A stretch of DNA of 27,012 bases from Symbiobacteriaceae bacterium (GTDB taxonomy: Bacteria > Bacillota_E > Symbiobacteriia > Symbiobacteriales > Symbiobacteriaceae): assembly GCA_027356675.1 (NCBI GenBank), contig DAHVXO010000267.1, positions 1 through 27,012 of the forward strand. The letters are read 5' to 3'. Below the pieces are notes generated by a model, which saw only the letters and a program-made list of their open reading frames with translations, was not told where the DNA came from and made no database searches. This document shows positions 2,261 to 27,012 of the stretch, in pieces. Positions within the stretch are counted from its first letter, which is position 1, and the number at the start of each line of letters is the position of its first letter. The position numbers and the translations under genes are program-made.

Positions 2261-2501
2261 GCTGCCACTCCAGTTGCTCATGGTTCCATGGGGCATCGTG
2301 TTTGTGGTTGCTGCCACCGGCTCTCTGCCGTGGCGGCTGCTCATACCCCAATTCTGGGCCGTACTCGTTGTGAGCTGTGCAACTGCTTTCTATCCATCTG
2401 ACTGGAGGGTCGCCATGCTAATCGGGCTGAGTCCGTTGCTCGGTTGGCTTGTGCCTCAGCCGTACAACTACACTGGCAACGGCCACTCGCGTCGTGGATA
2501 G
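2253..2501 (+). CDS. Small membrane protein, 82 aa
   Basis: An 82-residue protein, mostly hydrophobic, with two or three predicted membrane segments: about 5-25 (LMVPWGIVFVVAATG), 28-46 (LLIPQFWAVLVVSCATAF) and 50-66 (VAMLIGLSPLLGWLV), then a short polar tail. The ATG was chosen because GGAGGA lies six to twelve bases upstream. A longer frame would begin inside the preceding gene without such a site. The start overlaps the stop of the winged-helix gene by eight bases, which suggests translational coupling. I do not recognise the family. Its size and layout would fit a small inner-membrane accessory protein of the element. Function unknown. Confidence 0.6.
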   Translation: MPELPLQLLMVPWGIVFVVAATGSLPWRLLIPQFWAVLVVSCATAFYPSDWRVAMLIGLSPLLGWLVPQPYNYTGNGHSRRG

Positions 2502-2629
2502 CAGGCTCTGGGGGACGGGTGGTCATAAAGTGGGCCGTACTTTCACACTTCCATCCACCCGAGGCTGATAACCAGCGTGGTGCCTGGATTTGTGGCCATA
2601 TGATTCGCAGACCGGAGGAGATTCCTGAC

Positions 2630-3457
2630 ATGCCACAGGGCTCGGGACGCCCCGCCCCAAAGGTTACCCTTTTGCCTGACATGATCCTGGAGGGACAAGT
2701 GTCACGATTGTACGACCACGGCGCCTTGATGCGCTTTGGTCACGGGACAACCGCCTTGTTACCTGTCAGCGAGATCTCACGGCAGTTCGTGAAACACCCG
2801 TCCGACATGTTAAAAATGGGGTCACGTTTGACCGTCAAGGTACTCTCGGTCGTATACGATCCCGATGGCACCGTGAAGGCGACGGTCAGTGCGAAGGAAC
2901 TCAGCGAACCTCCGGTCTGCGGGAAGGCACGTGTCGGGTCAGAGAGCGTTGGACTACCATCTCCCAAGGTTACCCTTATGCCTGACATGATCCTGGAGGG
3001 CGAAGTGGTAAGAGTCTACGGCTATGGTGCCTTGATGCGCTTTGGTCCCGGGACAACCGCAATCCTGCCTGTCCGCGAGATCTCTCGGCACTTCGTGAGG
3101 CACCCGGGCGACGTGTTGAAAAAGGGCTCGCGCTTGACTGTCAAGGTACTCTCGGTCGGGCACGATGCTGATGGGTCTGTACGTGCTACAGTCAGCGCCA
3201 AGGAGCTTGTCCAAACTCCGCCCGAACAGAGTGCCTTGCCTGCACCGAACGCCATATTGCCCGGCACCATTGCCAGTATTAGCGAGCAGCACGTGTTCGT
3301 GCGCGTGCAGGGCGCCCCTGTCGATATGCTCTGTCCACGACTGAATCGTTCACTTTCTGTTGGCCAAGGAGTATCTGTCAAGGTAGTTAAGGCGGATGCA
3401 GTTGCGCGCAAGTTGCGCGGTAGAATCGTCAGGATGACCCCGAAGGGGGTTGGATAA
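2630..3457 (+). CDS. Three-module S1/OB RNA-binding protein, 275 aa (copy 2)
   Basis: Likely binds RNA. Two nearly identical S1 domains (residues about 16-91 and 118-193) each begin KVTL, then PDMILEG, and continue through GALMRFG, a TTA(I/L)LPV strand, GSRLTVKVLSV and a final TVSAKEL strand. A third, more divergent OB module lies at 207-268 and ends VKVVKADAVARKLRGRI. It closely matches the C-terminal module of the 395-1411 protein, so the two are paralogues, although this one lacks the arginine-rich leader. The ATG has GGAGGAG nine bases upstream; an upstream in-frame start lies inside the preceding membrane-protein gene. The first two domains also repeat at DNA level with a 306-base period. 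The stop overlaps the ATG of the next gene (TAATG). Confidence 0.85.
   Translation: MPQGSGRPAPKVTLLPDMILEGQVSRLYDHGALMRFGHGTTALLPVSEISRQFVKHPSDMLKMGSRLTVKVLSVVYDPDGTVKATVSAKELSEPPVCGKARVGSESVGLPSPKVTLMPDMILEGEVVRVYGYGALMRFGPGTTAILPVREISRHFVRHPGDVLKKGSRLTVKVLSVGHDADGSVRATVSAKELVQTPPEQSALPAPNAILPGTIASISEQHVFVRVQGAPVDMLCPRLNRSLSVGQGVSVKVVKADAVARKLRGRIVRMTPKGVG
2656..3211 (+). repeat. Tandem 306-bp duplication encoding two S1 domains
   Basis: Two DNA copies, about 2656-2905 and 2962-3211, are offset by exactly 306 bases (102 codons). The match is strong at the start of each unit (AGGTTACCCT, then TGCCTGACATGATCCTGGAG) and fades towards the end. The reading frame is kept. This looks like a fairly recent internal duplication that added one S1 domain to the protein. 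Confidence 0.85.
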
Positions 3458-4434
3458 TGGCACTCGGAGCGACGTATTCCTACTCTTCGAACATGAGTCT
3501 GGTCGAGCGGACTCAGCAAGATATGGGTGTGAACCCAGCCAGACTCGCTCTGGAGAGGGGTGACCTCACAACACCGGATTTGTACGCGCTGCTGGCACTG
3601 GCCTCAGCCCGCTTTGTAACCCGTTGGCAGTTCGAGTATCTCTGTTTCCCGCTCGATGCACAAGGAAACCCTGCATCCTCACGGCGGGTTACGACTCGTC
3701 TTGAGCGGTTGCAGCGGTATGGCTTGGCCCGCCGAGTCGAGTGGGTGAGTCAAGTGGACCCCCCAGTGAAGCATTCCGCGTACACAATCACCCTCTCTGC
3801 CGCCTTTCTTCTCAAGGATTGGCAAGGCAAGCGGATAGACTGGGAGCCGGGAATGGGCAAGCGGCAGCTAAAGCCGATGCTCCGCCAGCTCGCAGCAAAC
3901 GAGTTCCGGGCGCAGGTGTTGAAGGAACGTCGAGACCTACTCACCGATTGGCGGATGCTCCGCGATGCCGAAGGTCCCGTTGCGTCGTTTCGGATTAACT
4001 CTCACCGCTACCTCATCGACTGTCCCCGTGATGACGAGGATGTTTGCATGATTCGGCCCGAGCGGTATACCCGCCACATTGGAACTAACGACGCCGAACA
4101 TGCCCCGTTTCTGGTGATAGTCGTACCGGACGACCGCGTAAGGGTCGAAGTGTTTGAACGGCTAAGGGGAGACATAGAACCTCACCGAATTCTGGTCACC
4201 TCTGACGACAGGGCGTTTGAGCGTTCCGTGAAAGATCCCGGCTACCTCTGGGCATGGGACACGGGCGAACTGGTAGAGCGAAGCCTCCTGCCTTGGAACA
4301 AGCTATGTGCGCTTCACCTGCCGACGGTAGCGACTGTGGCGCCCAATTGGGCTTCTGTTGCCAGCCCAGCGCCTTCACTGGAAGCTGCGAATACCCTTCC
4401 GCTGCCGCGCAGGCTGGAGCCCTCCAATCGATAG
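3457..4434 (+). CDS. Winged-helix protein, replication-relaxation-like, 325 aa (copy 2)
   Basis: Paralogue of the 1424-2260 product. A winged-helix-like N-terminal region (about residues 40-105: LALASARFVTRWQFEYLCF, then SRRVTTRLERLQRYGLARRV) is followed by the shared core LAANEFRAQV, LLTDWRM, VASFRIN, DCPRDDEDV and PERYT, and then RILVTSDDRAFERSV with GYLWAW. The C-terminal 45 residues are extra, Pro/Ala-rich and probably unstructured. The ATG overlaps the stop of the S1 gene in a TAATG, so translation is probably coupled. Because S1 and winged-helix genes are paired twice, they probably work together, for example one on RNA and one on DNA in replication control. That role is inference. Confidence 0.75.
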   Translation: MALGATYSYSSNMSLVERTQQDMGVNPARLALERGDLTTPDLYALLALASARFVTRWQFEYLCFPLDAQGNPASSRRVTTRLERLQRYGLARRVEWVSQVDPPVKHSAYTITLSAAFLLKDWQGKRIDWEPGMGKRQLKPMLRQLAANEFRAQVLKERRDLLTDWRMLRDAEGPVASFRINSHRYLIDCPRDDEDVCMIRPERYTRHIGTNDAEHAPFLVIVVPDDRVRVEVFERLRGDIEPHRILVTSDDRAFERSVKDPGYLWAWDTGELVERSLLPWNKLCALHLPTVATVAPNWASVASPAPSLEAANTLPLPRRLEPSNR

Positions 4435-6882: not shown

Positions 6883-7794
6883 TCATCTGCAGGGCACGCA
6901 GGCGGCGTCACCCTCATCACCGTCCCGTCGGGGCGGTCTCACCTCGGACAGTTTCCCTAAGAAGCGGTGTACGTCAGCCTGAATGCGTTGCGCCTCCGCC
7001 CAGAACGGATCCAGCGCTCTGGCAAAAGCCTCAAGGCCAGTCACTTCGGCCAGTAGTGCATCGCGCCGGCGCTCCAGTTCCTCGATCTCCGCCTGGAGTA
7101 ACCTCTTACGTCCACCGCGGTCTGGAGGGGGAGGGAGCGGTTCCCCCACATTCATCGCCCTTATACATGCCTTTACCATTGTAGCCGCCATATTGGCCGG
7201 CCACTGCTCGTTCAGCATTCGTTTTGCAAGCAATCGTACCCGGGCGATTTTCTCCTCCTCCGGTACCCGCGATCGGAGGACCCAGCGCAGAGCGACGACC
7301 GCGCGATCGCTGAGCTGCCCCACTTCCCGCGCCAGGAGCAGGGCCGGTTCGTACTCGTAGATCTTCACTAACCCGAGCTTTTGACTAACGTGGCCCTCGG
7401 AACGCCCGAACTCAGACATAATCCACTTGATGGTCCACCGGAATCGTTCCATGCCGATATGATAGGCCAGCGCCTCCTCAAAGCCGCGCTGGCCGCTACG
7501 AATGATCTCCCGCAGGCGCTCCGCGAGGGCGTCTGCTTCGGGGAGATTCATCACTAGGCACGGCACCTTTGGGATCCCGGCGGCCTTCGCGACAACATAG
7601 AGCTTCATGCCTGAGACCAGGTCGAACGTTCGTCTCTCGTTTCGCCGCACCACGAGGAATCCTGTCATGCTGCCATGCTGACGGAACCGCTCCGCCAATT
7701 CAAGCACGACATCATCCGAAAAGATGATCTCAGCCTCGGGATACGGTTCGATCGAGTCAACGTAAAGATCCTCGTATACCGTCTTATCTCGCAT
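6883..7794 (-). CDS. ParB/Srx-domain protein, 303 aa
   Basis: The N-terminal part (about residues 5-85) matches the ParB nuclease-like fold: a first strand VDSIEPYPEAEIIF, a helix DDVVLELAERFRQHG, LVVRRNERRTFDLVSGMKLYVVAKAAG and VPCLVMN. A helix-turn-helix-like segment follows (WIMSEFGRSEGHVSQKLGLVKI), then a charged C-terminal coiled coil (ERRRDALLAEV onward). The usual GERR box reads VSGMKLY, so the CTP/phosphate-binding motif is altered. The ATG at 7794 was preferred because the domain begins right there and AGGCGGTG precedes it; an in-frame ATG at 7860 adds 22 residues. It is last in the SOS-type operon. ParB-related proteins are part of the PRTRC cassette whose other parts lie at 23137-27012, so this may belong functionally with them. 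Confidence 0.8.
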   Translation of the reverse strand: MRDKTVYEDLYVDSIEPYPEAEIIFSDDVVLELAERFRQHGSMTGFLVVRRNERRTFDLVSGMKLYVVAKAAGIPKVPCLVMNLPEADALAERLREIIRSGQRGFEEALAYHIGMERFRWTIKWIMSEFGRSEGHVSQKLGLVKIYEYEPALLLAREVGQLSDRAVVALRWVLRSRVPEEEKIARVRLLAKRMLNEQWPANMAATMVKACIRAMNVGEPLPPPPDRGGRKRLLQAEIEELERRRDALLAEVTGLEAFARALDPFWAEAQRIQADVHRFLGKLSEVRPPRRDGDEGDAACVPCR

Positions 7795-7895
7795 GCAAAC
7801 ACCGCCTGAAATGGGTGATGTGGCAATGATTCCGCATGCAAAGATATACCCCTGCTTCATCGCCCCGCAAGAGGAACTTTTTTTGGTGGGAGCAA

Positions 7896-8231
7896 CTAAT
7901 TGGCTTCGGTGATGGGTTCCACGTCGAGCAGGTCGACCAGGTTCAAACGGTTCGAAAGGCCGCGTGAGTCGACCAGCACGATTACAGCAGGATTCAACTC
8001 AAGAACGTACCCTGAGACCGCATGCCGCCGGCCCGCCCGGAAGTAGCGCACCATTACTGGGCGCCCATCACGCTGGGCTTCGGCCAGCGACAAGCCGATT
8101 GCCTCTCGCTGCTGCTCGTCAAGTTCCGGGACGGGCTCGATGTCCAGTGACTCCCTAAGCGCGTGGAGCCGTTCCTTGTGCTCCGGGAGCATTAGCGAGA
8201 CCCACTTGTTGGCCCGGTGCTGGTACGTCAC
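7896..8231 (-). CDS. YolD-like protein, 111 aa
   Basis: Matches the YolD-like family, small proteins encoded next to UvrX/DinB-type polymerases in Firmicutes and their phages. Visible features are HRANKWVSLMLPEHKERL near the N-terminus, a central helix, then the beta part VMVRYFRAGRRHAVSGYVLELN and a final strand LNLVDLLDVEPI. The GTG start overlaps the polymerase stop in a GTGA, so the two are translated together. Its biochemical role is unproven in general; by context it acts with the Y-family polymerase. The ParB-related gene follows on the same strand. Confidence 0.85.
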   Translation of the reverse strand: MTYQHRANKWVSLMLPEHKERLHALRESLDIEPVPELDEQQREAIGLSLAEAQRDGRPVMVRYFRAGRRHAVSGYVLELNPAVIVLVDSRGLSNRLNLVDLLDVEPITEAN

Positions 8232-9499
8232 GGCCTCAGTCCTCCAATGCGGGTGCCCGCGGCATGACCCCCGATTTTTCCGTCCTGGTCAGTGCGACCG
8301 GGCGCCAGGTTTCGCCCGCGAAGAACCGCCTGGTGCCCGAAACGGTCTCTGATCGTATCCATCGCTCTGGCCACCTTCAGTTGCCGTTCCTGATCGGAAA
8401 AGAGGCTGCTCTGGACCTGCTGTGCCGGCACCAGATTCGAGAGAGCGACGTAGAGCTGGCGGACTGCATTGCCTGGTCGGTCATGGCGGGCGAGCAGGTT
8501 CATGCAGGTGTTGTACACCTCCATCTGCAGGCACGTAGGGTGGGGGAGGCCCACGCTGTGGGAAAAGCCGCCCGCTTCCCAGCTTTGCTGGGAATAGCCG
8601 ACCGACAGGCTGACGGTCCGCCCCACAAGTCCATGCTGCCGGGCCCGCTCTGTGACTGCATCGCACAGCTCCAAGAGGACGGTGCCCACCTCGTCGCGAT
8701 CCCGATAGTCCCGCAGCAGCGTAATCCCTTTGGAGAAGGAACTGGGCGGTGCCTGATAAGTGTTGCGGGGGCGAGAATGGTCGACGCCCCACGCGTGATG
8801 GAACAGTTGATTGCCAATCACGCCGAATCGGCGCTCGAGCGTTGCAAGGGACGCGTGGGCGAGGTCCCCGAGGGTGTAAACCCCCATGGCCGCCAGCCGG
8901 CGAGACAGGGCCTCACCGATACCCCAGCAGTCTTTCGTTGGCACTTTCCAGAGCTTCACTGGGACATCTGCGTAGGTCCACGTCGCGACGCCCTGCTTCT
9001 TCCCCTCCACGTCGAGCGAAACCTTGGCGAGGAACATGTTCGGACCAATCCCGATGCCCGTCGGAAGCCCCAGCTCGCGCTCAATCCGCTGCTGGATATG
9101 GCCGGCCGTCTGCACAACATCGCCGAGTAACGGGGGCACCTCGACCCAAGCCTCATCCACGCTGTAGACGAGGATATCTTCGGGCGGCGCATAGTCGTGC
9201 AGGATTCGCGCCATCTGGGTGGAGACGCCCAGGTAATGGTCCATGCGGGCGCCGACAACCCAGATAGCCGGGTCATCCGGCACTTCGTAGAGGCGCGAGC
9301 CCGTCTTGATACCATGCTTGGCCTTCAAGGCAGGCGAGGCCGCCAGGACCACCGATCCCGGGCGTGCCACGTCGCTCACAACCGCCAGGAGACATGTGCG
9401 GGGATCCAAACCACGGGCAACAGCCTCTACCGAGGCGTAAAATGACCGGCCGTCGACACAGAGGATCGGCCAGTCAGGCTGCTTTGTGTAATCGATCAC
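8228..9499 (-). CDS. Y-family DNA polymerase (UvrX/DinB-like), 423 aa
   Basis: A translesion DNA polymerase. The palm residues are intact: D16 in LCVDGRSFYASVE, and D115/E116 in VYSVDEAWVEV. The family signature GIGIGPNMFLAKVSLDVEGKK and the helix-hairpin-helix region WGIGEALSRRLAAMGVYTLGDL follow. Near the C-terminus, residues 363-367 read QSSLF, a sliding-clamp-binding motif, and this window encodes its own clamp at 17027. GTG at 9499 was chosen because GGGAGG lies six bases upstream; earlier in-frame ATGs would lie close to the promoter -10. The promoter has a LexA box in its spacer, so it should be SOS-induced. It is first in an operon with the YolD and ParB-related genes. Confidence 0.92.
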   Translation of the reverse strand: MIDYTKQPDWPILCVDGRSFYASVEAVARGLDPRTCLLAVVSDVARPGSVVLAASPALKAKHGIKTGSRLYEVPDDPAIWVVGARMDHYLGVSTQMARILHDYAPPEDILVYSVDEAWVEVPPLLGDVVQTAGHIQQRIERELGLPTGIGIGPNMFLAKVSLDVEGKKQGVATWTYADVPVKLWKVPTKDCWGIGEALSRRLAAMGVYTLGDLAHASLATLERRFGVIGNQLFHHAWGVDHSRPRNTYQAPPSSFSKGITLLRDYRDRDEVGTVLLELCDAVTERARQHGLVGRTVSLSVGYSQQSWEAGGFSHSVGLPHPTCLQMEVYNTCMNLLARHDRPGNAVRQLYVALSNLVPAQQVQSSLFSDQERQLKVARAMDTIRDRFGHQAVLRGRNLAPGRTDQDGKIGGHAAGTRIGGLRP

Positions 9500-9542
9500 G
9501 GGTGGCCTCCCTTCCGGCACCGTGCGCCGTGCGATGGAGGTC

Positions 9543-9571
9543 ATTGTACTACGAACGTCCGTTCGACACAA
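9543..9571 (-). promoter_or_regulatory. SOS promoter of the polymerase operon
   Basis: On the minus strand TTGTGT (plus 9566-9571), a 17-base spacer and TACAAT (plus 9543-9548) form a good sigma-A promoter. Transcription would start near 9536, about 37 bases before the GTG of the polymerase gene. The LexA box fills most of the spacer. Confidence 0.85.
9552..9565. promoter_or_regulatory. LexA (DinR) operator
   Basis: CGAACGTCCGTTCG is a perfect palindrome. It carries the CGAAC-N4-GTTCG core recognised by LexA in Bacillus and Clostridium. It lies between the -35 and -10 of the polymerase promoter, where bound LexA would block RNA polymerase. Confidence 0.9.
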
Positions 9572-17026: not shown

Positions 17027-18166
17027 GTGAAATTCACCATTGCTCAGGAAACCATGGGCATTGCCCTGGCCATCGTGGGTCGTGCCGTCAGCAAGAAGAA
17101 CACGATCCCAGTTCTGAAAGGCGTTCACGTCCATGCGGACGCTGCCCTCGGCAGGGTCGTGCTTCGGGCAACGGACATGGAAAAGGTGCTGGAGGTCCCA
17201 GTCCCAGCGCAAGTTGAGACCGGCGGCGCCATCGTCCTGCCGGCACAGATGCTGGTCGACCTTGTACATCGGATTCCCGCCCACGACCTGACGCTCGAGG
17301 CGGACATGCGCAATTTCACCGCCACTATCCGGTGGGGGAAGAGCTCCGAGTATAAGCTGCACGGGTTCGCCAGCGACCAGTTCCCAACGATGCCCGATGT
17401 GCCGGCCGAAGCGCAGAAGATCAGCGTGAAGCAGGCCCTGCTGAAGGACCTGATCGACAAGACGAGCTTCGCCGCTGGTCAGGACGAATCCAAGCCGTGG
17501 TTGACGGGGGCCCTGTTCAAGCTAAAGGACGGGATTCTCAGCGCTCTGACCACGGATGGCGTTCGCATTGCCAACAGTGAGATGCCAGTCGAGAACCCCG
17601 GTGCCATCGCATTCACGGTGATTGTGCCGTCCCCCAGCTTGGACGCCCTCGATCGGGTGCTCAGCGTGGAGAACGACGCCATGATCAACATCACCCTCAT
17701 ACCGGGGGGAAACCAGGTGCTGTTTGACACCGGCAAGGTAACGATGCTAAGCCGGCTGCTCGAAGGCCAGTACCCGGATGTCATGCGGTTGGTGCCCCAG
17801 TCGTACTCGGCCAAGGCCTCCATTCAGCAGTTCGAGCCCAACGCGGAGATGGAGAAAACCAATCTCCTGGAGGCGATCGAGCGGGCGATGCTCCTTGCCA
17901 AGGACGGAGCGCTGAAGCTTTCGTTTACCCAGGGGCTAGTCAAGCTCACCTCCAACACGCCCGAAGTGGGCCAGATCTATGAAGAGGTCCCGGCCAAGTA
18001 CGAAGGGGAGCCCATCGACGTCGGGTTCAATGGCAAGTTCCTGACCGACTGGATCAAGAAGTTCATCGCTCACGGTTTCGAGTTCGAGCTGAGCGGTCCG
18101 CGTAACCCGGCCCGGCTGCGTGCGGGGTCGTGCGTCTACGTGGTGTTGCCGCTGATCAGCTTCTAG
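17027..18166 (+). CDS. dnaN: DNA polymerase III sliding clamp (beta subunit), 379 aa
   Basis: The ring-shaped clamp that tethers DNA polymerases to DNA. Its length is normal and the three-domain layout is recognisable: an N-terminal domain (KKNTIPVLKGVHV, LRATDMEKVLEVPV), a middle domain with KDLIDKTSFAAGQDESKPWLTGALFKL and ALTTDGVRIA, and a C-terminal domain ending RAGSCVYVVLPLISF. The usual chromosomal ending (LMPM/LPMR-like) is replaced by LPLISF. This is close to the surface where clamp-binding peptides dock, so partner choice may differ. The GTG start has AAGGAG behind a small hairpin. A clamp on a mobile element suggests semi-independent replication. The gene next to it has a clamp-binding motif. 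Confidence 0.95.
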   Translation: MKFTIAQETMGIALAIVGRAVSKKNTIPVLKGVHVHADAALGRVVLRATDMEKVLEVPVPAQVETGGAIVLPAQMLVDLVHRIPAHDLTLEADMRNFTATIRWGKSSEYKLHGFASDQFPTMPDVPAEAQKISVKQALLKDLIDKTSFAAGQDESKPWLTGALFKLKDGILSALTTDGVRIANSEMPVENPGAIAFTVIVPSPSLDALDRVLSVENDAMINITLIPGGNQVLFDTGKVTMLSRLLEGQYPDVMRLVPQSYSAKASIQQFEPNAEMEKTNLLEAIERAMLLAKDGALKLSFTQGLVKLTSNTPEVGQIYEEVPAKYEGEPIDVGFNGKFLTDWIKKFIAHGFEFELSGPRNPARLRAGSCVYVVLPLISF

Positions 18167-18306: not shown

Positions 18307-19854
18307 ATGAGCCCACCGGCAGCGGCGGTGCAAATGAGCTTGTTTGAGGAAGCGCCACCAGAGGAAGCTGTTCCACAGAAGGCGGAGCCCTCTAAACGCT
18401 CCGCCCCGCGGCAACCAGCCCGCCGGCCTAACGCCTATCCGGCGCTCACAAACCAACTTGCTCTGAACGATGAACTGGTGGCCCGAAAAAAGGCGGAGTC
18501 ACAGGAGAAACTGAGACGGAAGAAGCTGGGCCTGCCCAAACTGGTGAAGACGGAAGCAGACAAAGCAGAGGAACGGATCCTGCAGGAACGGTGGATGGAC
18601 GCATGCCGCGTGCTGGCCCTTCGAGGGCACGAGCCGCTGCCGTTCCCTGACATGCTGGAGGAAGTCAGACGCCGGGTCACGGATGACCCGGGACACTACG
18701 GACTCCAGAACGATCCGGCCGCTCTTGACCCTGATTCCATTGTCTTTCTGAACTGCGGCCTGGGCCAGAACTCCGTCTGCCTATGTGTACTCCTGGTTTT
18801 AGGGCTCCTGCCGGCCTGGATCTATTCACACCACGTCGTGATCGTTTTCTCGGACACCATGGCGGAACGCCCATCAACGTATGCATACGCGCTGAACGTC
18901 CTGATTCCATTCCTGGACCGCTACGGCGTGGAGTTCGTCTGGCTCATGCCCGATGTACCTTTCCACTACGGCATGTCGGAGCCCGCTCCGGAACTGGCCT
19001 GGTTGGATGAAGCACTGGCTGAGGTCAAAACCGAAAGCCGGTTTCACGTCACGCGGAACCGGGTGCTGAAAGGCATTATTGAGACCTACGTCGGTGACGT
19101 GCACGCCAGCTTTCCGATGTGGTCAAGCCGCGCACGCTGCACGACCAATCACAAGCAAAATGTGCTCGCCAGGTACCGGGACGCGGTTCGGCGGGACTGG
19201 AACGGCCGGAGCGCTGTTCAGCAGACCAACAGCGGTTACCGTGATTGGGTTTTGGTCGGCATTGGCGCCGACGAACCCGGGCGGGCGGAACCAACGTTGG
19301 AGCAGAACTACCTCTGTCTCTATCCGCTGCTTGCGTACAATCTGGGCCGCCAGGAACAGGTGGCGTTGATCGAAGCGGCAGCCTTGCCGGTGCCCGAGAA
19401 GAGCGGCTGCTGCGTTTGCTATGCGGCCCCAATGTATGAACGCTGGTATCTATCCCAGAGTTTTCCTGCCGTCTTTGGTCAGATGGTCGCCATGGAGCAG
19501 GCCAGCATCGAGGATCGCCTCAACCGTATCGACCCGAAGACCAAGCTCCCCGCTCCCTTGAAGCCCAATTATGTCTGTCAGGAATATGATCTTCCCCTGC
19601 CGGAAGCCGTCGCCAAGTGGCATGAGGAAAACCCCCATGTCACCGTGGAGATGTGCGCGGAATGGCTCATTTCGCGGACCTACAACCGCGATGAGCGCCC
19701 GGTGAAGTGCCACGTGACTGCCGATCAGCTCACCTTTGATGTGGATGGGCTGGACCCGGACGAAGTGCTGGCGCTGCTCGAACAGATCGAGGCCGAGGAA
19801 GCCGGCGACCAGATGGAATTCCCAGTCCCGGCGCCGATGGGGAATGTACGTTGA
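18307..19854 (+). CDS. PAPS-reductase/PP-loop ATPase-family protein with clamp-binding motif, 515 aa
   Basis: Belongs with the phage and plasmid phosphoadenosine-phosphosulfate-reductase-like proteins, whose PP-loop fold activates substrates with ATP. The PP-loop region reads FLNCGLGQNSVC (residues 147-158) and is followed by HHVVIVFSDTMAERPSTYAY. Then come SRARCTTNHK (C278), VGIGADEPGRAEP and KSGCCVCYAAPMYERW (C368, C369, C371). These cysteines could bind an iron-sulfur cluster or sulfur, as in DndC. Residues 9-13 read QMSLF, a close match to the QL(S/D)LF clamp-binding peptide, placed in a flexible Pro/Ala-rich N-terminus. The clamp gene lies directly upstream. DNA modification or tRNA-like thiolation are possibilities; its substrate is unknown. 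Confidence 0.8.
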   Translation: MSPPAAAVQMSLFEEAPPEEAVPQKAEPSKRSAPRQPARRPNAYPALTNQLALNDELVARKKAESQEKLRRKKLGLPKLVKTEADKAEERILQERWMDACRVLALRGHEPLPFPDMLEEVRRRVTDDPGHYGLQNDPAALDPDSIVFLNCGLGQNSVCLCVLLVLGLLPAWIYSHHVVIVFSDTMAERPSTYAYALNVLIPFLDRYGVEFVWLMPDVPFHYGMSEPAPELAWLDEALAEVKTESRFHVTRNRVLKGIIETYVGDVHASFPMWSSRARCTTNHKQNVLARYRDAVRRDWNGRSAVQQTNSGYRDWVLVGIGADEPGRAEPTLEQNYLCLYPLLAYNLGRQEQVALIEAAALPVPEKSGCCVCYAAPMYERWYLSQSFPAVFGQMVAMEQASIEDRLNRIDPKTKLPAPLKPNYVCQEYDLPLPEAVAKWHEENPHVTVEMCAEWLISRTYNRDERPVKCHVTADQLTFDVDGLDPDEVLALLEQIEAEEAGDQMEFPVPAPMGNVR

Positions 19855-21053: not shown

Positions 21054-21178
21054 GGATCCGATTGCCGCGTTGCGGCAGCTGTTTCCGGACAGCGCCCTAT
21101 CTCTGACTGAGAAGGATGCCGGTTACGGCCAAGGTGTTGTTACTCACCCCAGGTGGCGTTATTGCCTCCTGGGGTTTT
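21054..21178 (+). ncRNA. Structured attenuator-like leader of the ArdC-like gene
   Basis: After the promoter come TGCCGC-GTT-GCGGCA (21063-21077), GCTGT-TTCCGG-ACAGC (21078-21093), a GCCG/CGGC stem, and the hairpin GGTG-TTGTTACT-CACC. The last of these runs into an intrinsic terminator (21147-21174: CCCCAGG(T)GGC with GCC(T)CCTGGGG) followed by TTTT. The CACC arm and the terminator stem share bases, so they exclude each other. This could be a terminated small RNA, or a leader that lets transcription into the gene only under some condition. Confidence 0.6.
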
Positions 21179-21213
21179 CGTGTTCTTCGGAGCACGATGG
21201 CACCGTTATTTCA

Positions 21214-21235
21214 GGGGCGACTGCCCCAAAGGAGG
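21214..21235 (+). promoter_or_regulatory. Hairpin and ribosome site of the ArdC-like gene
   Basis: GGGGC-GACT-GCCCC (21214-21227) is followed by AAAGGAGG (21228-21235), eight bases before TTG 21244. This site fixes the start at 21244 rather than at earlier in-frame codons, which lie inside the leader RNA. Confidence 0.65.
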
Positions 21236-21243
21236 CGTTTTGC

Positions 21244-22098
21244 TTGAAGGAGAGCCGACCAGTCTCGCCCGAGACCCAGGCCCGGATCGACGCCGGCATC
21301 GAGCGCGTGCTGCAGATGTTCCACACCGAGGACTTCCCAGAACGGGTCGCGGAGACATTCCTACACCGGCAGGCGGGCGGAGAACGACCGTGCTCCGGTT
21401 GGTCCCTGGTCAACATCCTCTTGATGCTGGCACAGGGATCGGTGGATGCTCGCACCATGAAGGAATGGAATCGGGTTGGTCGCCGGGTGCGCGCGGGCAG
21501 CAAGGCCATCTACATTCGCCGTCCCACGCGGAAGATCGCAGTGAAGATGACCGATGAGGATGGCAACGAGCAGGTGGTGCCATTACCAGTCGACTACGGT
21601 TGGACTCCCAGGTATCGCTATGAGGACACGGAAGGGGACCCGCTCGCCATCCCGGATTATCGGCCTATCCAACTGCCACCGCTTTACGATGTGGCGGAGA
21701 AGCTCGGGCTGCGGGTTGACTACGGGCCCTGCGAAGGGAAGTTTGCGGGCTACTATGCTCACCGTGCGAAGCGGATTCACCTGTGCACGCACGACGTAAA
21801 CACCTTCTTCCACGAGCTGGCCCACGCGGCCCACGCGACCTTCCACCGGCTGACCGGTGGGCAGGAGGCGGTGCAGGAGATCGTCGCGGAGATGACCGCC
21901 TGCGTCCTTGCCATCCTGTACGGTTACGAGGGGTTCGTGTGGAATGGCCACAAGTACATTGCGCACTACGCACAGGGCAAGAGCCCTGCCGAAGCGGTGC
22001 TGCAGTGCCTGGTTGACGTTCAGCGGACTCTCGGCGTGATCATGAGCACCCACATGGATGATCCGGTGGAAAGACCGGATGTCCTGGTGGCGGCCTGA
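21244..22098 (+). CDS. ArdC-like protein with zincin metallopeptidase motif, 284 aa
   Basis: The N-terminal half resembles the ssDNA-binding part of ArdC antirestriction proteins (SGWSLVNILLMLAQG, TMKEWNRVGRRVRAGSKAIYIRRPTRK). The C-terminal half is a zincin-type domain with HELAH at 190-194 and a likely third ligand in EIVAEMT (E212 or E216). ArdC proteins protect incoming plasmid DNA from restriction. Here such a role would fit a transferring element, but it is inferred. The start is TTG 21244, set by AAAGGAGG. The upstream leader has a terminator, so expression may be conditional. No conjugation gene is present in the window. Confidence 0.8.
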   Translation: MKESRPVSPETQARIDAGIERVLQMFHTEDFPERVAETFLHRQAGGERPCSGWSLVNILLMLAQGSVDARTMKEWNRVGRRVRAGSKAIYIRRPTRKIAVKMTDEDGNEQVVPLPVDYGWTPRYRYEDTEGDPLAIPDYRPIQLPPLYDVAEKLGLRVDYGPCEGKFAGYYAHRAKRIHLCTHDVNTFFHELAHAAHATFHRLTGGQEAVQEIVAEMTACVLAILYGYEGFVWNGHKYIAHYAQGKSPAEAVLQCLVDVQRTLGVIMSTHMDDPVERPDVLVAA

Positions 22099-23136: not shown

Positions 23137-23940
23137 ATGGCTACACAGAAGTCGGCCGCTGGCCAGGCAACGTTTTTCCAGCTTGATCAGGCAGCGGAGG
23201 TCTTTCCGCAGCCGCCGGCCCGGCCCGAAACAACGACCCGACTTGATGCCGGAACCACGACGGCGGGCTCGACTGAGCGACCCAGGACGGTGTTGCCTGC
23301 CGCCCCAGCCGTGGAGGAACGCTACCGGTTTCCTTTCACGGTTCGGTACGGGCTCGATCCGGTCGAGCTGCTAGGGTTTGTTGATGGCCAGGAGTACACG
23401 AAGGCGCAGGTCAAGGAGCTCCTTGTGTCCCACTGCCAACTCCCTGAGTTTGGAAAGCCCCACATGGACCTCCTGTACCACGCAGAGACCAACTCCTTCA
23501 TCGTCTCTGCGCTTCTCAACAAGAAGGGCGCGCTGGGAACTATCCCAGCCGCCCTCCTTCTCCAGACGCAGGACCTGTTCAAGGAGACCTTCGCCAAGCA
23601 CGGCACAGAAGATCGCCTGCTGGTCTATCGCAACGAGAAGGGGGAGCTGTGGGCCGTCCAACCGCCCATGAAGCGATCTGTTGATGAGGTCGAAATCCTG
23701 GGCGCCCTGCAGACCACCGTCATCCATGAAGGTCAGACGTGGGGGTTGATGGCGGACCTTCACAGCCATCACCACTTTGGTGCGTTCTGGTCGGAAGATG
23801 ACGATGAGAACGAGTACCTCCGGAGGGTTGTCTACGGGGTCTTCTCGTGGAAAGGTGGCCAGGACGTCTGGCTCTTTCGGCACTTCACGGGCACCGAGCT
23901 GGTTCCGCTTCACTATGCGGAGGTGGTCGTAGATGGGTAA
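23137..23940 (+). CDS. JAMM/MPN (JAB) metallopeptidase, PRTRC protein A-like, 267 aa
   Basis: A predicted zinc peptidase of the deubiquitinase (JAMM) type. The motif H-x-H-x7-S-x2-D is complete: H209, H211, S219 and D222, in DLHSHHHFGAFWSEDDDE. The same stretch resembles PRTRC system protein A (DxHSH with AFFS and a DD pair). After about 75 Pro/Thr-rich residues comes a mixed domain (FPFTVRYGLDPVELLGFVDG, LYHAETNSFIVSALLN) before the catalytic region. The upstream JAMM glutamate is not certain by eye. The ATG has GGAGG nine bases upstream. The last eight bases overlap the ATG of the E1 gene. In such cassettes JAMM enzymes process or remove ubiquitin-like tags; the target is unknown. Confidence 0.85.
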   Translation: MATQKSAAGQATFFQLDQAAEVFPQPPARPETTTRLDAGTTTAGSTERPRTVLPAAPAVEERYRFPFTVRYGLDPVELLGFVDGQEYTKAQVKELLVSHCQLPEFGKPHMDLLYHAETNSFIVSALLNKKGALGTIPAALLLQTQDLFKETFAKHGTEDRLLVYRNEKGELWAVQPPMKRSVDEVEILGALQTTVIHEGQTWGLMADLHSHHHFGAFWSEDDDENEYLRRVVYGVFSWKGGQDVWLFRHFTGTELVPLHYAEVVVDG

Positions 23941-25333
23941 CCCCTTCACGAGCGACCGCCTGGCCGTGATCATCATCGGCGCCGACATGACCGGCTCGGC
24001 CGTGTTTCAGGACCTCGTGCGCTTCCTTGCCCATATGGTCGAGATCCACGTGGTGGACGGCGGCACGGTAAAAGAAGCGGACTTGGCCCGACAGCACTTC
24101 ACCAGCAAGGACGTGGGCAAAAACAAGGCGAGGGTCTTACAGGCGAGGGCAACTGGGGCGCTCGGACTTGACCGGGTGTTTGCGCACCCGTATGACCTGA
24201 CCGATGTCCGCCAGTTGCATGACCTGGCTCAGTTCTATGCTTCGGTTATTCTGATAGGTACTGTCGACAACCGGCTGGCCCGATCGGTGCAGGAGCAGTT
24301 CGTTCGGGAGACAAAGGTGGCCACCTACTACCTGTGCCTTACCGACGGCGAGTATGCAGGCGGGGTGATGGCTCTCTGCCGGACCGACGAAGGCGAGGCC
24401 GACTCCGTGGGCTCCCCGATGGACCCGTCACACCTGACGGACGTAGCGGGCGAACCCGTGAGAGGCGGACTTGTGCCAACCGCCGGCAAACTTCCGGCTT
24501 GGATAAGCAGTCGCATGGCGGCAATCATCTCCCTGGAGTTGGTTGCCAAGGCACTCAAGGGGAACCTGCAGACTGGCCTCGCGCACTTCCATCAGTGCAG
24601 GATTTCCCGTGTCACGCCAGCCCTTACTCAGCTTGTCGCCGGCCGCATTGCCGTCATTCTCGTTGGAGCAGGCGGAATTGGGTCAGCCGTGTTTCAGGAC
24701 CTCGTGCGCTACTTATCCCCCATGATTGAGATTCACCTGGTGGACGGCGACCTCGTGGAAGGCCGAAACCTCCAAAGGCAGCACTTCACCAGGAAGGATC
24801 TCAGGCGGAACAAGGCCAGTGCGCTACATGAGAAGGCTCGGGACTTGCTCAAACGAGAGGGCGTGCAAGCCCACGCCTTCTACCTCACCGAGCCCGAACA
24901 GTTACACCAGATCGCCCGGAACTACTCGGCGGTCATCCTGATCGGTGGGGTTGATAACCACCCGGCCCGGAAAGTGCAGGAGCAGTTCGTTCGGGAGACC
25001 AAGGTGCCCACTTACTACCTCTGTCTTGCCAACGGTGAGAACAGCGGTGAGGTGTTCGCCACCTACCAGGTCGATGGAGCCCAATATGGGTTCTTCCGCT
25101 CCCACATTGATCCGTCAGTACTCACGGATGAAGAGGGGGACCCCACACGGCGCAGCTGCGGTCAGCAACTGGATGCTGGAAGCATCCAGACGCTGGTGGC
25201 CAATCGCAAGGCAGCGATTATCGCGCTGGAGTTGGTCTTCCAAGCACTTGTGGGAACAATTCAGACTGGCATTGTTTATTTCGATGAGTGCACGACCGCT
25301 CAGGTGGCGGTGGTTACTCCTGCGGCTGCCTAA
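23933..25333 (+). CDS. Tandem ThiF/E1-like protein with one degenerate and one intact domain, 466 aa
   Basis: Two ThiF/MoeB/E1-type adenylation domains in one chain, clearly duplicated: VFQDLVR, RQHFT, VQEQFVRETKV and TYYLCL occur in both. The second (from residue 237) keeps the key features: GAGGIG (245-250), VDGDLVEGRNLQRQ, and a candidate thiolating cysteine C409 in RRSCGQQ. The first (1-236) has lost them: GADMTG replaces GxGGxG, VDGG replaces VDGD, DLARQ replaces NLxRQ, and no cysteine sits at the matching place. This inactive-then-active order parallels eukaryotic UBA1. Activation of a ubiquitin-like protein or a peptide is the expected reaction. No ThiS-like partner is visible. Confidence 0.88.
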   Translation: MGNPFTSDRLAVIIIGADMTGSAVFQDLVRFLAHMVEIHVVDGGTVKEADLARQHFTSKDVGKNKARVLQARATGALGLDRVFAHPYDLTDVRQLHDLAQFYASVILIGTVDNRLARSVQEQFVRETKVATYYLCLTDGEYAGGVMALCRTDEGEADSVGSPMDPSHLTDVAGEPVRGGLVPTAGKLPAWISSRMAAIISLELVAKALKGNLQTGLAHFHQCRISRVTPALTQLVAGRIAVILVGAGGIGSAVFQDLVRYLSPMIEIHLVDGDLVEGRNLQRQHFTRKDLRRNKASALHEKARDLLKREGVQAHAFYLTEPEQLHQIARNYSAVILIGGVDNHPARKVQEQFVRETKVPTYYLCLANGENSGEVFATYQVDGAQYGFFRSHIDPSVLTDEEGDPTRRSCGQQLDAGSIQTLVANRKAAIIALELVFQALVGTIQTGIVYFDECTTAQVAVVTPAAA

Positions 25334-25357
25334 TCTCAAGGTGATGGAGGTGAGACT

Positions 25358-25999
25358 GTGGATCTTCGTGAGTGGTTCGCTCGCACCGATCTGCCAAAAG
25401 TCCCCCACATGAAGCAGCGGCTTCAGTTTGTTCCGCCGTCGAAGTTTCGTAGCGACGAAGTCATGGAGCTGTTTCTCCGGGGCTATGACCACGGATTTCG
25501 GCTCACTACGCGCAGCGGAATGCCGACTCCCTTGCTCAACCTGATGGCCTCACTTATGTCCTTTCGGGTCAATGGGCCTCTGGAGAGCAGGGTGGTCGTG
25601 GCGGAACTGCTTCCATACGAACAGCTCCCTAGTCTCGAACGGGAGCGCTTTGGTGAGCCTGGGAAGTGGTATTTGTCAAATATCACCACCCGCATTAGGG
25701 GAACAGGCGGGGCGTTTGGTGGTGGCGGATGCGGGTCATCTGACTGGATTCGCAAGCTTCTCCCGGGATTGATCCGCAAGGACATCCCCACCCGCGAGGA
25801 TGGCCGCAAACGGTACCGTGTGCACTATCTAGCCGTTTGTCCACCGGATTGGAGGGTTGACCATGGGGTCTACGAAGGGCTCTACCGGTACACGTTTGGA
25901 CACCAATGCAAGTACCCAGACGGATACGAACTTCTTAGATCTATCCGTGCTGAATCTCAAAAGCAGGGATCGCCAGGAACGCTACCTGCAGCGGGCTAA
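25358..25999 (+). CDS. Hypothetical protein of the E1-E2-JAMM cassette, 213 aa
   Basis: I do not recognise the family. The GTG start has GGAGGTGA six bases upstream and follows the E1 stop by 24 bases. Parts seen: MDLREWFARTDLPKVP, a helical stretch with FLRGYDHGFRLTTRSGMPTPLLNLMASLM, a strand VVVAELLPYEQL, then IRGTGGAFGGGGCGSSDW, an unusual Gly-rich loop with a cysteine, and HYLAVCPPDWRVDHGVYEGLYRY. The Gly-rich Cys loop could be a nucleotide or thioester site, or merely a flexible link. It may be a substrate, adaptor or diverged E2. Its last 137 bases overlap the next gene. Confidence 0.65.
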   Translation: MDLREWFARTDLPKVPHMKQRLQFVPPSKFRSDEVMELFLRGYDHGFRLTTRSGMPTPLLNLMASLMSFRVNGPLESRVVVAELLPYEQLPSLERERFGEPGKWYLSNITTRIRGTGGAFGGGGCGSSDWIRKLLPGLIRKDIPTREDGRKRYRVHYLAVCPPDWRVDHGVYEGLYRYTFGHQCKYPDGYELLRSIRAESQKQGSPGTLPAAG

Positions 26000-26282
26000 G
26001 GGACACGTTGAAGTGCTCCGGCCCCTCTACGCGCAGATCCGTAAGCGGCTCCAGGAGTGTCGTCGAGACGGTAACACCCCGCTCGACTTGGCGAACGACC
26101 TGACTCGGGAGGCAAGGATCTCCCCGGAGATGGGCTTGCTGGCCTATGACTTGCTCGAATTGGTGGAGGGCATCGGTCTGGGCTTTGCTAAGGAGGATGA
26201 AGCCCGACAGGAGAGCTTCCGTTTCTTCCTAGACAACATCGACAAACTCCGGCCCTTAGTAGGTGAGGAGGTATTGTTTTGA
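25863..26282 (+). CDS. Hypothetical helical protein of the cassette, about 139 aa
   Basis: After a Ser/Thr/Asn-rich start the protein is fully helical and charged: SRDRQERYLQRAKGHVEVLRPLYAQIRKRLQECRR, TPLDLANDLTREARISPEMGLLAYDLLELVEGIGLGF, ESFRFFLDNIDKLRPL. ATG 25863 has GGAGG eight bases upstream but makes a 137-base overlap with the previous gene. GTG 25947 would shorten the overlap and start near the helical part, with a weak site. It has no beta-grasp pattern, so it is not an obvious ubiquitin-like protein. The stop overlaps the TTG of the E2-like gene in a TTGA. Function unknown. Confidence 0.6.
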   Translation: MGSTKGSTGTRLDTNASTQTDTNFLDLSVLNLKSRDRQERYLQRAKGHVEVLRPLYAQIRKRLQECRRDGNTPLDLANDLTREARISPEMGLLAYDLLELVEGIGLGFAKEDEARQESFRFFLDNIDKLRPLVGEEVLF

Positions 26283-27012
26283 GCGACTGGCGTGGTTCGG
26301 TCGTGCAGGAAGTCGTTATTCGCATCAATCGGGACATGCTGCGCCAAGGCATCATCCCGACGACAAAGGTGACCCCAAAAGGGGAGAGGACAGTAAACCT
26401 GGGCTTGTATGACGCCTCGGTGCTGCTTAACGACCTCTTCGCCTGGGAGGCCCGCAACCGGAGCGTAACGATGATGTCCCGCTTTGAAACAAACGGGTTT
26501 ATCGCGCTCGGTCAAAATGGCGGGAAGTGGATGGCTGTTAAGGAACTTGAACCGTCGAAGTACTACCTGATTTCGGCGACGGAGAAGGTGTATCACTGCC
26601 ACCTGCCACGGGTGATCATCCAGACCAGCAACTATGGTTATACCTACTTGTTCTGGACGAGAGACAGAAAGCTCAAGCCAACGAGCAGGCTGTACCCACT
26701 CGTGCTTGGGAACGTTTCTTTGGACGGACAGGTATGTTTCGGGTCCACCGGTCTCAAGTGCAAAGGCCCTGAAGAGGTGGACGCGTTCGCCCGCAAAATC
26801 ATTGAGGCGCCCACATCTGGGCACTGGTGGCACGTCTATCGTGGTCGCTGGTTTCGGAAGATGCGTGAGGAACGGGGCTTGTCGTTGGAAGAGGTGGCTA
26901 CGGCCGTCAAGCTTACCCCTGAGACGCTTGCTGCCCATGAGGCTGACAAGAAGCCTATGGTGAACACGGTGGCTTATAAGTTGCGGGATTTCTTTGGCCT
27001 TCCCGGCAGGGA
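26279..27012 (+). CDS. E2-like (PRTRC B-type) protein fused to an XRE helix-turn-helix, partial
   Basis: Runs off the window end; 244 residues are visible. The core resembles the prokaryotic E2 family D / PRTRC system protein B: YHCHLPRVIIQTSNYGYTYLFW, then LKPTSRLYPLVLGNVSLDG and QVCFGS, where C153 is the candidate E2-type cysteine, followed by EEVDAFARKIIEAP and GHWW. Residues about 191-241 form an XRE-type helix-turn-helix (WFRKMREERGLSLEEVATAVKL, then TPETLAAHEADKKP and KLRDFFGL). The TTG start overlaps the previous stop and has AGGAGG seven bases upstream. A DNA-binding domain on an E2-like protein is unusual. It may repress its own operon or aim conjugation at DNA-bound targets. Confidence 0.78.
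   Translation, partial: MSDWRGSVVQEVVIRINRDMLRQGIIPTTKVTPKGERTVNLGLYDASVLLNDLFAWEARNRSVTMMSRFETNGFIALGQNGGKWMAVKELEPSKYYLISATEKVYHCHLPRVIIQTSNYGYTYLFWTRDRKLKPTSRLYPLVLGNVSLDGQVCFGSTGLKCKGPEEVDAFARKIIEAPTSGHWWHVYRGRWFRKMREERGLSLEEVATAVKLTPETLAAHEADKKPMVNTVAYKLRDFFGLPGR

Follow-up and report, generated by a model that had tools for sequence, protein, structure and literature searches.

A PRTRC-related ubiquitin-like conjugation cassette with a putative Ubl-JAMM precursor and a tandem E1 in a Symbiobacteriaceae bacterium

Layout of the cassette and its relatives

We analysed 27,012 nucleotides (nt) of contig DAHVXO010000267.1 (assembly GCA_027356675.1, Symbiobacteriaceae bacterium), hereafter called the window. 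Five tightly packed genes on the plus strand at its end encode a JAMM peptidase, a double E1 protein, two proteins of no known family (X and Y) and an E2-like protein. They form a real, conserved cassette that looks suited to conjugation of a ubiquitin-like protein (Ubl), on what resembles a mobile element. The features of the cassette are as follows.

23137..23940, +, Ubl-JAMM fusion gene, 267 amino acids (aa), start codon ATG at 23137
About 23320-23529, +, predicted Ubl domain, preceded by a low-complexity lead and ending ...LNKKG
23524..23529, +, Lys-Gly at the predicted mature end of the Ubl, after which the JAMM is predicted to cleave
About 23530-23937, +, JAMM peptidase domain
23761..23802, +, JAMM motif HxHx7SxxD, with the upstream Glu at 23608-23610
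23933-25333, +, E1 gene, 466 aa, two ThiF domains
23933..24598, +, N-terminal half of E1, a pseudo-E1 with a GADMTG loop
24617..25333, +, C-terminal half of E1, an intact adenylation domain with the predicted catalytic Cys (Cys409) at 25157-25159
25358..25999, +, gene X, 213 aa, no known family
25863..26282, +, gene Y, about 139 aa, no known family, with ATG 25863 taken as its start
26279..27010, +, E2-like protein, frame open at the window end, with a C-terminal helix-turn-helix (HTH) at about 26843-27004
26735-26737 and 26822-26824, +, predicted catalytic Cys and His of the E2-like protein

The JAMM gene overlaps the E1 gene by 8 nt, 24 nt separate E1 from X, Y begins within X, and Y overlaps the E2 gene by 4 nt. 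The first-pass annotation of this DNA had likewise described five tightly coupled genes.

The order ubl-jamm-E1-X-Y-E2 was kept in the window and in three other loci, namely two from viral contigs (L008 and L009, X of L009 being assigned by position only) and one from a contig of a Chloroflexi metagenome-assembled genome (L088). The gene order is not unique to the window, and because it recurs in three other loci the cassette is not a product of chance. As in the window, Ubl and JAMM are fused in L009, which has a guanine plus cytosine (GC) content of 34.5%, compared with 61% in the window. In L008 and L088 they are separate, overlapping genes, with Ubls ending in KGVRHG and KGG, respectively. 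A protein identical to X of L008 carries the name Symbiobacteriaceae. Directly upstream of the L008 cassette lies a ParB gene with a PRTRC_parB domain match of 1.8e-17, for which generic ParB models score higher. Directly upstream of the L009 cassette we read a beta-clamp-like gene.

A ubiquitin-like domain in the JAMM gene

Pfam and NCBIfam detect only the C-terminal part of the first gene (Prok-JAB, 0.0015; PRTRC_A, 9.5e-5). This part has the fold and the motif of a JAMM peptidase: the motif, HSHHHFGAFWSEDD, is complete, as had been noted at first pass, and the upstream Glu is present as well. Its profile matches the JAMMs of Firmicute plasmids with P = 3.7e-11.

The usual ubiquitin-like protein C had been reported as not seen. 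It does have a counterpart, as the N-terminal half of the JAMM gene is a predicted Ubl ending in Lys-Gly. A profile of four window-type Ubls aligned with the Ubls of seven viral-contig loci over 73 columns, up to the last column (hhalign P = 5.7e-16), while the best of 30 column-shuffled controls had P = 0.038. The viral-contig Ubls are stand-alone proteins that all stop at KKG or RKG, and the window Lys-Gly aligned with the terminal KG of the stand-alone Ubls. Similarly, in JAMM-less stretches of the Firmicute plasmids L003 and L005, a stand-alone small protein ahead of E1 ends in KKG or NKG. The same segment forms the N-terminal part of the JAMM protein in other plasmid relatives, and the window gene belongs to the latter type. 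The Firmicute plasmid proteins contain a segment between Ubl and JAMM, perhaps JAB-N, that is absent from the window protein.

A second 267-aa protein, P0009, is identical to the window Ubl-JAMM protein at 265 of 267 positions. The fusion frame is unbroken in the window, P0009, L009, L001, L002, L004, L006 and L019. In the AlphaFold2 model of the window protein (mean predicted local distance difference test score, pLDDT, 85.6), residues 76-80 in the Ubl tail are the only segment of at least three residues with a pLDDT below 50. Structure comparison of this model gave matches to the JAMM part only.

JAMM genes co-occur with Ubl residues beyond Lys-Gly

We searched the fetched loci with a Ubl hidden Markov model (HMM) and recorded for every locus whether a JAMM-motif protein lies near the Ubl and whether residues follow the terminal K/N-G. 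The locus sample was capped (80 of 143 kept), and related sequences in it stay partly dependent. We counted 57 PRTRC-like loci with a recognised Ubl, including the window and L006, which were added by hand (the HMM missed the L006 Ubl). The count omits 41 loci that have a JAMM-motif protein without a recognised Ubl, 43 loci with neither, the duplicates L133 and L134, and Ubl matches with a domain E above 1e-3 (L030, L031 and L045), of which L045 would have contributed a further tailed JAMM locus.

Where no JAMM was found, the Ubl ended exactly at K/N-G in 30 of 30 loci. In contrast, 23 of the 27 loci with a JAMM had residues beyond K/N-G, either as a fusion (7 loci) or as a tail of 1-112 residues (16 loci), and four had no tail (Fisher test, 3.3e-12). 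The association persisted with one locus per 60% E1-identity cluster (18/22 with JAMM versus 0/13 without; 1.6e-6), when fused loci were excluded (16/20 versus 0/30; 9.8e-10), and when both restrictions were combined (11/15 versus 0/13; 6.7e-5). Since JAMM co-occurs with Ubl residues beyond K/N-G, the Lys-Gly is best read as the mature end of the Ubl, and the JAMM as the enzyme that would make this end. For operons of this kind, Iyer et al. 2006 (PMC1779556) had already proposed that the JAB protein both processes the Ubl and removes it; the Ubl-JAMM fusion and the rule of JAMM and tail co-occurrence are new in this analysis.

Two groups of loci stood out. Ubls with an extension of 73-112 residues past K/N-G and a separate JAMM gene nearby were seen in L033, L037, L038, L041-L044, L046, L052, L054, L065, L071 and L085. 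JAMM-less ubl-E1 loci with a Ubl ending in KG were seen in viral contigs (L010-L018, L020, L022-L024, L028, L029, L075 and L080).

One predicted inactive and one intact E1 half in a single chain

The E1 protein matched PRTRC_ThiF with E = 3.9e-36, in two stretches, which bears out the earlier description of a double ThiF/E1 protein. Nineteen single E1s share 34 invariant positions, of which the C-terminal half keeps 32 and the N-terminal half 20. The C-terminal half retains GxGxxG, Arg, Lys, Asp and the catalytic Cys, as in E1s of the ThiF/MoeB family. In the N-terminal half the glycines of the nucleotide loop are lost, and the positions occupied by Asp, Asn and the catalytic Cys in single E1s are altered. 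The two halves are sisters in the tree (support 99/95), with a long branch for the N-terminal half (1.1 versus 0.23). Nevertheless, the frame of this half is open throughout, its third-position GC is modestly higher in frame (0.77 versus 0.66 and 0.43), and its model has a predicted Rossmann core.

The model of the tandem protein, which is of moderate confidence, resembles eukaryotic UBA1 and UBA7 across both halves. Foldseek matches 1-19 in the PDB were eukaryotic E1s with two halves, from entries for UBA7 and UBA1 (one of them titled only as an E1-E2-ubiquitin thioester mimetic), and rank 20 was a bacterial E1-E2-Ubl complex. The predicted arrangement is thus a dead and a live E1 in one chain, resembling the layout of eukaryotic E1 enzymes (UBA1, UBA6 and UBA7), which also have two adenylation halves of which one is active. 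Eukaryotic E1s carry extra cysteine and ubiquitin-fold domains (PMC11354881); by contrast, the 466-aa window protein has no room for these, and it has an independent origin within a bacterial family.

In the protein collection, with 7998 candidates scored, the tandem layout was found only in the protein cluster of the window E1 itself, and among 143 E1 reading frames only the window's has it, without a counterpart in L008, L009 or L088. A relative from T. composti (442 aa) was suspected to be a double E1 and was rejected as not tandem. With the double E1 as single query, no relative was found in viral contigs; an alignment query did recover relatives.

The E2-like protein and genes X and Y

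The Pfam match of the E2-like protein to Prok-E2_D is weak (E = 0.014; 15.6 versus 25 bits). Its assignment is supported instead by a match to a PRTRC-type B profile, built from seven B-position proteins of which three are annotated PRTRC B (P = 1.4e-6; 1.3e-5 when query and target were exchanged; no column shuffle among 30 did as well). The match to the plasmid and Chloroflexi E2 set was stronger still (P = 1.2e-10). A three-sequence E2 profile run against all PDB sequences gave five matches, three to UBE2L3 and two to L3A2-1, which are non-significant (E 0.89-1.5). Their cysteines align with that of the profile, and the aligned Cys of UBE2L3 is presumably its catalytic cysteine. Residues C144 and H173 (numbered from 26306) are invariant in the window, L008 and L088, while L009 retains only the Cys of the two. 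The C-terminal DNA-binding fusion proposed at first pass was recovered as well (HTH_19, E = 2.6e-6). Among the four proteins of the window, L008, L009 and L088, however, only that of the window carries the HTH, and a search of plasmids with the E2-HTH protein gave no match.

X and Y matched nothing in Pfam, NCBIfam or PADLOC at E up to 1, in agreement with their earlier description as unplaceable. X has relatives in L008 (37% identity) and L088 (49%) and five further relatives, and is assigned in L009 by position only (18% identity). For Y, a relative was found in L088 (phmmer 8e-8), and those in L008 and L009 are assigned by position (29% and 24% aligned identity). Neither protein matched the profiles of PRTRC E and F (P 0.14 or worse), nor those of PRTRC B, the Firmicute E- and F-position proteins, or X', a gene of the viral-contig operons (best P 0.04, X versus B). 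The best match of X to solved structures had E = 0.14. Y, the X' genes and further genes preceding E2 have an EEVLF/EVIL motif in common at the C-terminus, which was rejected as a sign of homology because the EEV of L088 is the translation of a Shine-Dalgarno-like run of the E2 gene, GAGGAGGT, an explanation that we generalised by inspection.

Relation to PRTRC and other Ubl systems

The resemblance of the JAMM and E2 proteins to PRTRC A and B, as first proposed, reflects homology by profile. For the JAMM versus A-type proteins, P was 1.1e-7 (6.4e-8 exchanged), and no column shuffle out of 30 reached the observed value. An 11-member Ubl set matched six canonical PRTRC C proteins with P = 6.3e-5 (2.3e-6 exchanged; again 0/30 shuffles), although neither the four-member window clade (P = 0.12) nor the viral Ubl set (0.5) gave a significant match to C on its own. 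Five of the six canonical C proteins fetched end in KG, and the sixth continues from KG with AYAQI.

Other results set the cassette apart from PRTRC. The E1 is a clear homolog of the PRTRC ThiF protein below equivalog level (TIGR03736, 124.6 bits versus a cut-off of 144.75), and the JAMM scores 22 bits against a cut-off of 101.8 for PRTRC A (TIGR03735). The window lacks the order ParB-E-C-F-B-A-ThiF, has no ParB-family gene adjacent to the head of the cassette, and yielded no E or F. Instead, it has the Ubl fused to the JAMM, the order ubl-jamm-E1-X-Y-E2 with X and Y, a tandem E1 and an HTH on the E2. A ParB-related protein at 6883 had been taken as a further hallmark of PRTRC. It is indeed a ParB-like protein (ParB_N, 3.8e-7), but it is not evidence for PRTRC because it is encoded on the opposite strand at a distance of about 15 kb and does not match PRTRC_parB (limit E = 1).

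Because E and F, the gene order and scores above the curated cut-offs are all lacking, we place the cassette, as judged from sequence, outside PRTRC proper, in a branch sister to it. From gene content we equate PRTRC with the type 6d operons of Iyer et al. 2006. The suggestion of a new PRTRC branch with altered logic stands as far as the homologous E1, E2 and JAMM, the differing order and E1 architecture and the two extra genes are concerned. Its other grounds do not hold: the Ubl is present, the ParB argument fails, and the E2-HTH fusion and E1 duplication are not features of a branch, since they are seen only in the window sequence.

The window shares with the type 6d operons (PMC1779556) a Ubl with a conserved terminal Gly, a ThiF-type E1, a JAMM and a location on plasmids or mobile elements. 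The type 6d E2s are described there with a conserved Cys and a downstream His, a pair found here in three of the four loci. The closest Ubls by profile are those of the viral-contig ubl-E1-X'-E2 operons (L010, L011, L012, L015, L018, L022 and L024), which we read as belonging to Firmicute-like phages. Their E1s are about 30% identical to that of the window and their E2s are related (P = 1.1e-4). Unlike the window, however, no JAMM was found in them, their Ubls end in KKG or RKG, and X' (about 280 aa) is dissimilar to X and Y.

For the BilABCD system, PMC11354881 describes the E1 BilD as a pseudo-dimer of an inactive N-terminal and an active C-terminal half, and a JAMM that processes the Ubl. 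In contrast, the window has a single Ubl domain fused to the JAMM and an E2 related to PRTRC B, and the duplication of its E1 is independent of that of BilD because the window halves are sisters. The resemblance to Bil is confined to the E1 layout. In a PADLOC scan of ten window proteins, each of the 25 families shown (of 29) had a model labelled E1-E2 among the matches of the E1, and the only matches of the E2-like protein were weak ones to HTH_VI and capH.

Surroundings of the cassette

ParB-, DnaN- and Pol IV-like genes occur near the cassette, consistent with the appearance of a mobile element. The neighbouring features are:

395-1411 and 2444-3457, S1-domain proteins
1424-2260 and 3457-4434, weakly Replic_Relax-like proteins, each following an S1-domain protein
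6883-7860, -, ParB/Noc-like protein, best NCBIfam match nucleoid occlusion protein (1.4e-12)
7896-8231, -, YolD-like partner of the polymerase
8228-9571, -, Pol IV-like polymerase
17027-18166, DnaN sliding clamp
18307-19854, 515-aa protein, no Pfam match at E 0.1
21070-22098, protein carrying a metalloprotease-like HELAH motif, no Pfam match

The S1-domain and Replic_Relax-like genes look like a duplicated gene pair. The protein at 18307-19854 resembles a nucleotide-binding protein of the phosphoadenosine-phosphosulfate-reductase/DndC type, and that at 21070-22098 looks ArdC-like. Clamp genes also occur near related cassettes, in L001 and L007 (phmmer) and, by eye, in L009, L010, L015 and L022 (upstream in all four).

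Proposed mechanism and alternatives

We consider it likely that the window carries a mobile-element-borne Ubl conjugation cassette of the PRTRC/type 6d superfamily, working as follows. The Ubl would be made as a Ubl-JAMM precursor, which the JAMM would cut after Lys-Gly to free the C-terminal glycine, as the co-occurrence of JAMM and tail suggests. The tandem E1 is predicted to pack as an intramolecular pseudo-dimer, in which the dead N-terminal half stands in for a second subunit. The C-terminal half would adenylate the Ubl and accept it on Cys409, consistent with the sequence losses in the other half and the sister relation of the two. By homology, the E2 cysteine would then receive the Ubl and hand it on to a target, and the JAMM, as expected of its enzyme family, may also strip the tag. 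More speculatively, the HTH of the E2 might guide conjugation towards targets bound to DNA, or it might regulate the operon. A bolder version, which we regard as unlikely, would see an independent re-invention of the eukaryotic E1 layout together with a self-processing Ubl-JAMM, an E2 whose DNA-binding domain writes the tag at chosen DNA sites (for example on replication or partition proteins), and X and Y as new targeting subunits.

The N-terminal half of the E1 could also be a functionless, decaying remnant of a recent duplication, carried as a passenger by an ordinary homodimeric E1. The loss of 14 of the 34 invariant positions, the long branch and the restriction of the tandem to one protein cluster and one of 143 reading frames would fit this explanation. 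The open frame, the modest excess of third-position GC and the predicted Rossmann core speak against it, as does the use of inactive-active pairs by eukaryotic E1s and by BilD (PMC11354881), so that we find it rather unlikely. Still less probable is a permanent fusion, in which an uncleaved Ubl serves as a recruiting domain that tethers the JAMM to the E1 and E2 or to targets. The uninterrupted Ubl-JAMM frame in the eight sequences named above would be expected in that case. However, in all 30 JAMM-less relatives the Ubl stops precisely at this K/N-G, two separate, overlapping genes encode Ubl and JAMM in the close relatives L088 and L008, and no part of the model is less ordered than the junction.

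Finally, the Ubl might be a ThiS/MoaD-like sulfur carrier, which the E1 adenylates for thiocarboxylation and the JAMM releases. The E1 does match the ThiF/MoeB type, one related Ubl carries a MoaD/ThiS family annotation, and genes of the phosphoadenosine-phosphosulfate-reductase family lie within about 4 kb of E1 in L002 and L137. A sulfur carrier would, on the other hand, leave unexplained the E2-like protein with its conserved Cys in the window, L008, L009 and L088, an arrangement described for type 6d (PMC1779556), and no rhodanese gene was named in the annotated stretches fetched (L006 carried no annotation). We hold this alternative to be quite improbable, and retain Ubl conjugation as the preferred reading.

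Implications

One PRTRC-type E1 was matched in 365 of 72,556 plasmid records (E 1e-5), and PRTRC-type cassettes are thus common on large plasmids. A literature search covering titles, abstracts, short passages and few subscription journals found nothing on their function beyond the predictions of Iyer et al. The JAMM-less viral-contig loci suggest a Ubl system in phage-like genomes that is worth its own study. The tandem E1 would be a recent instance of a single E1 becoming a dead-plus-live pair, the type of step inferred for the evolution of eukaryotic E1s. For the family as a whole, the results offer a testable rule, namely that mature Ubls would end in Lys-Gly and that a JAMM accompanies those Ubls in need of trimming. 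The window supplies a natural single-chain precursor suited to assaying such trimming.

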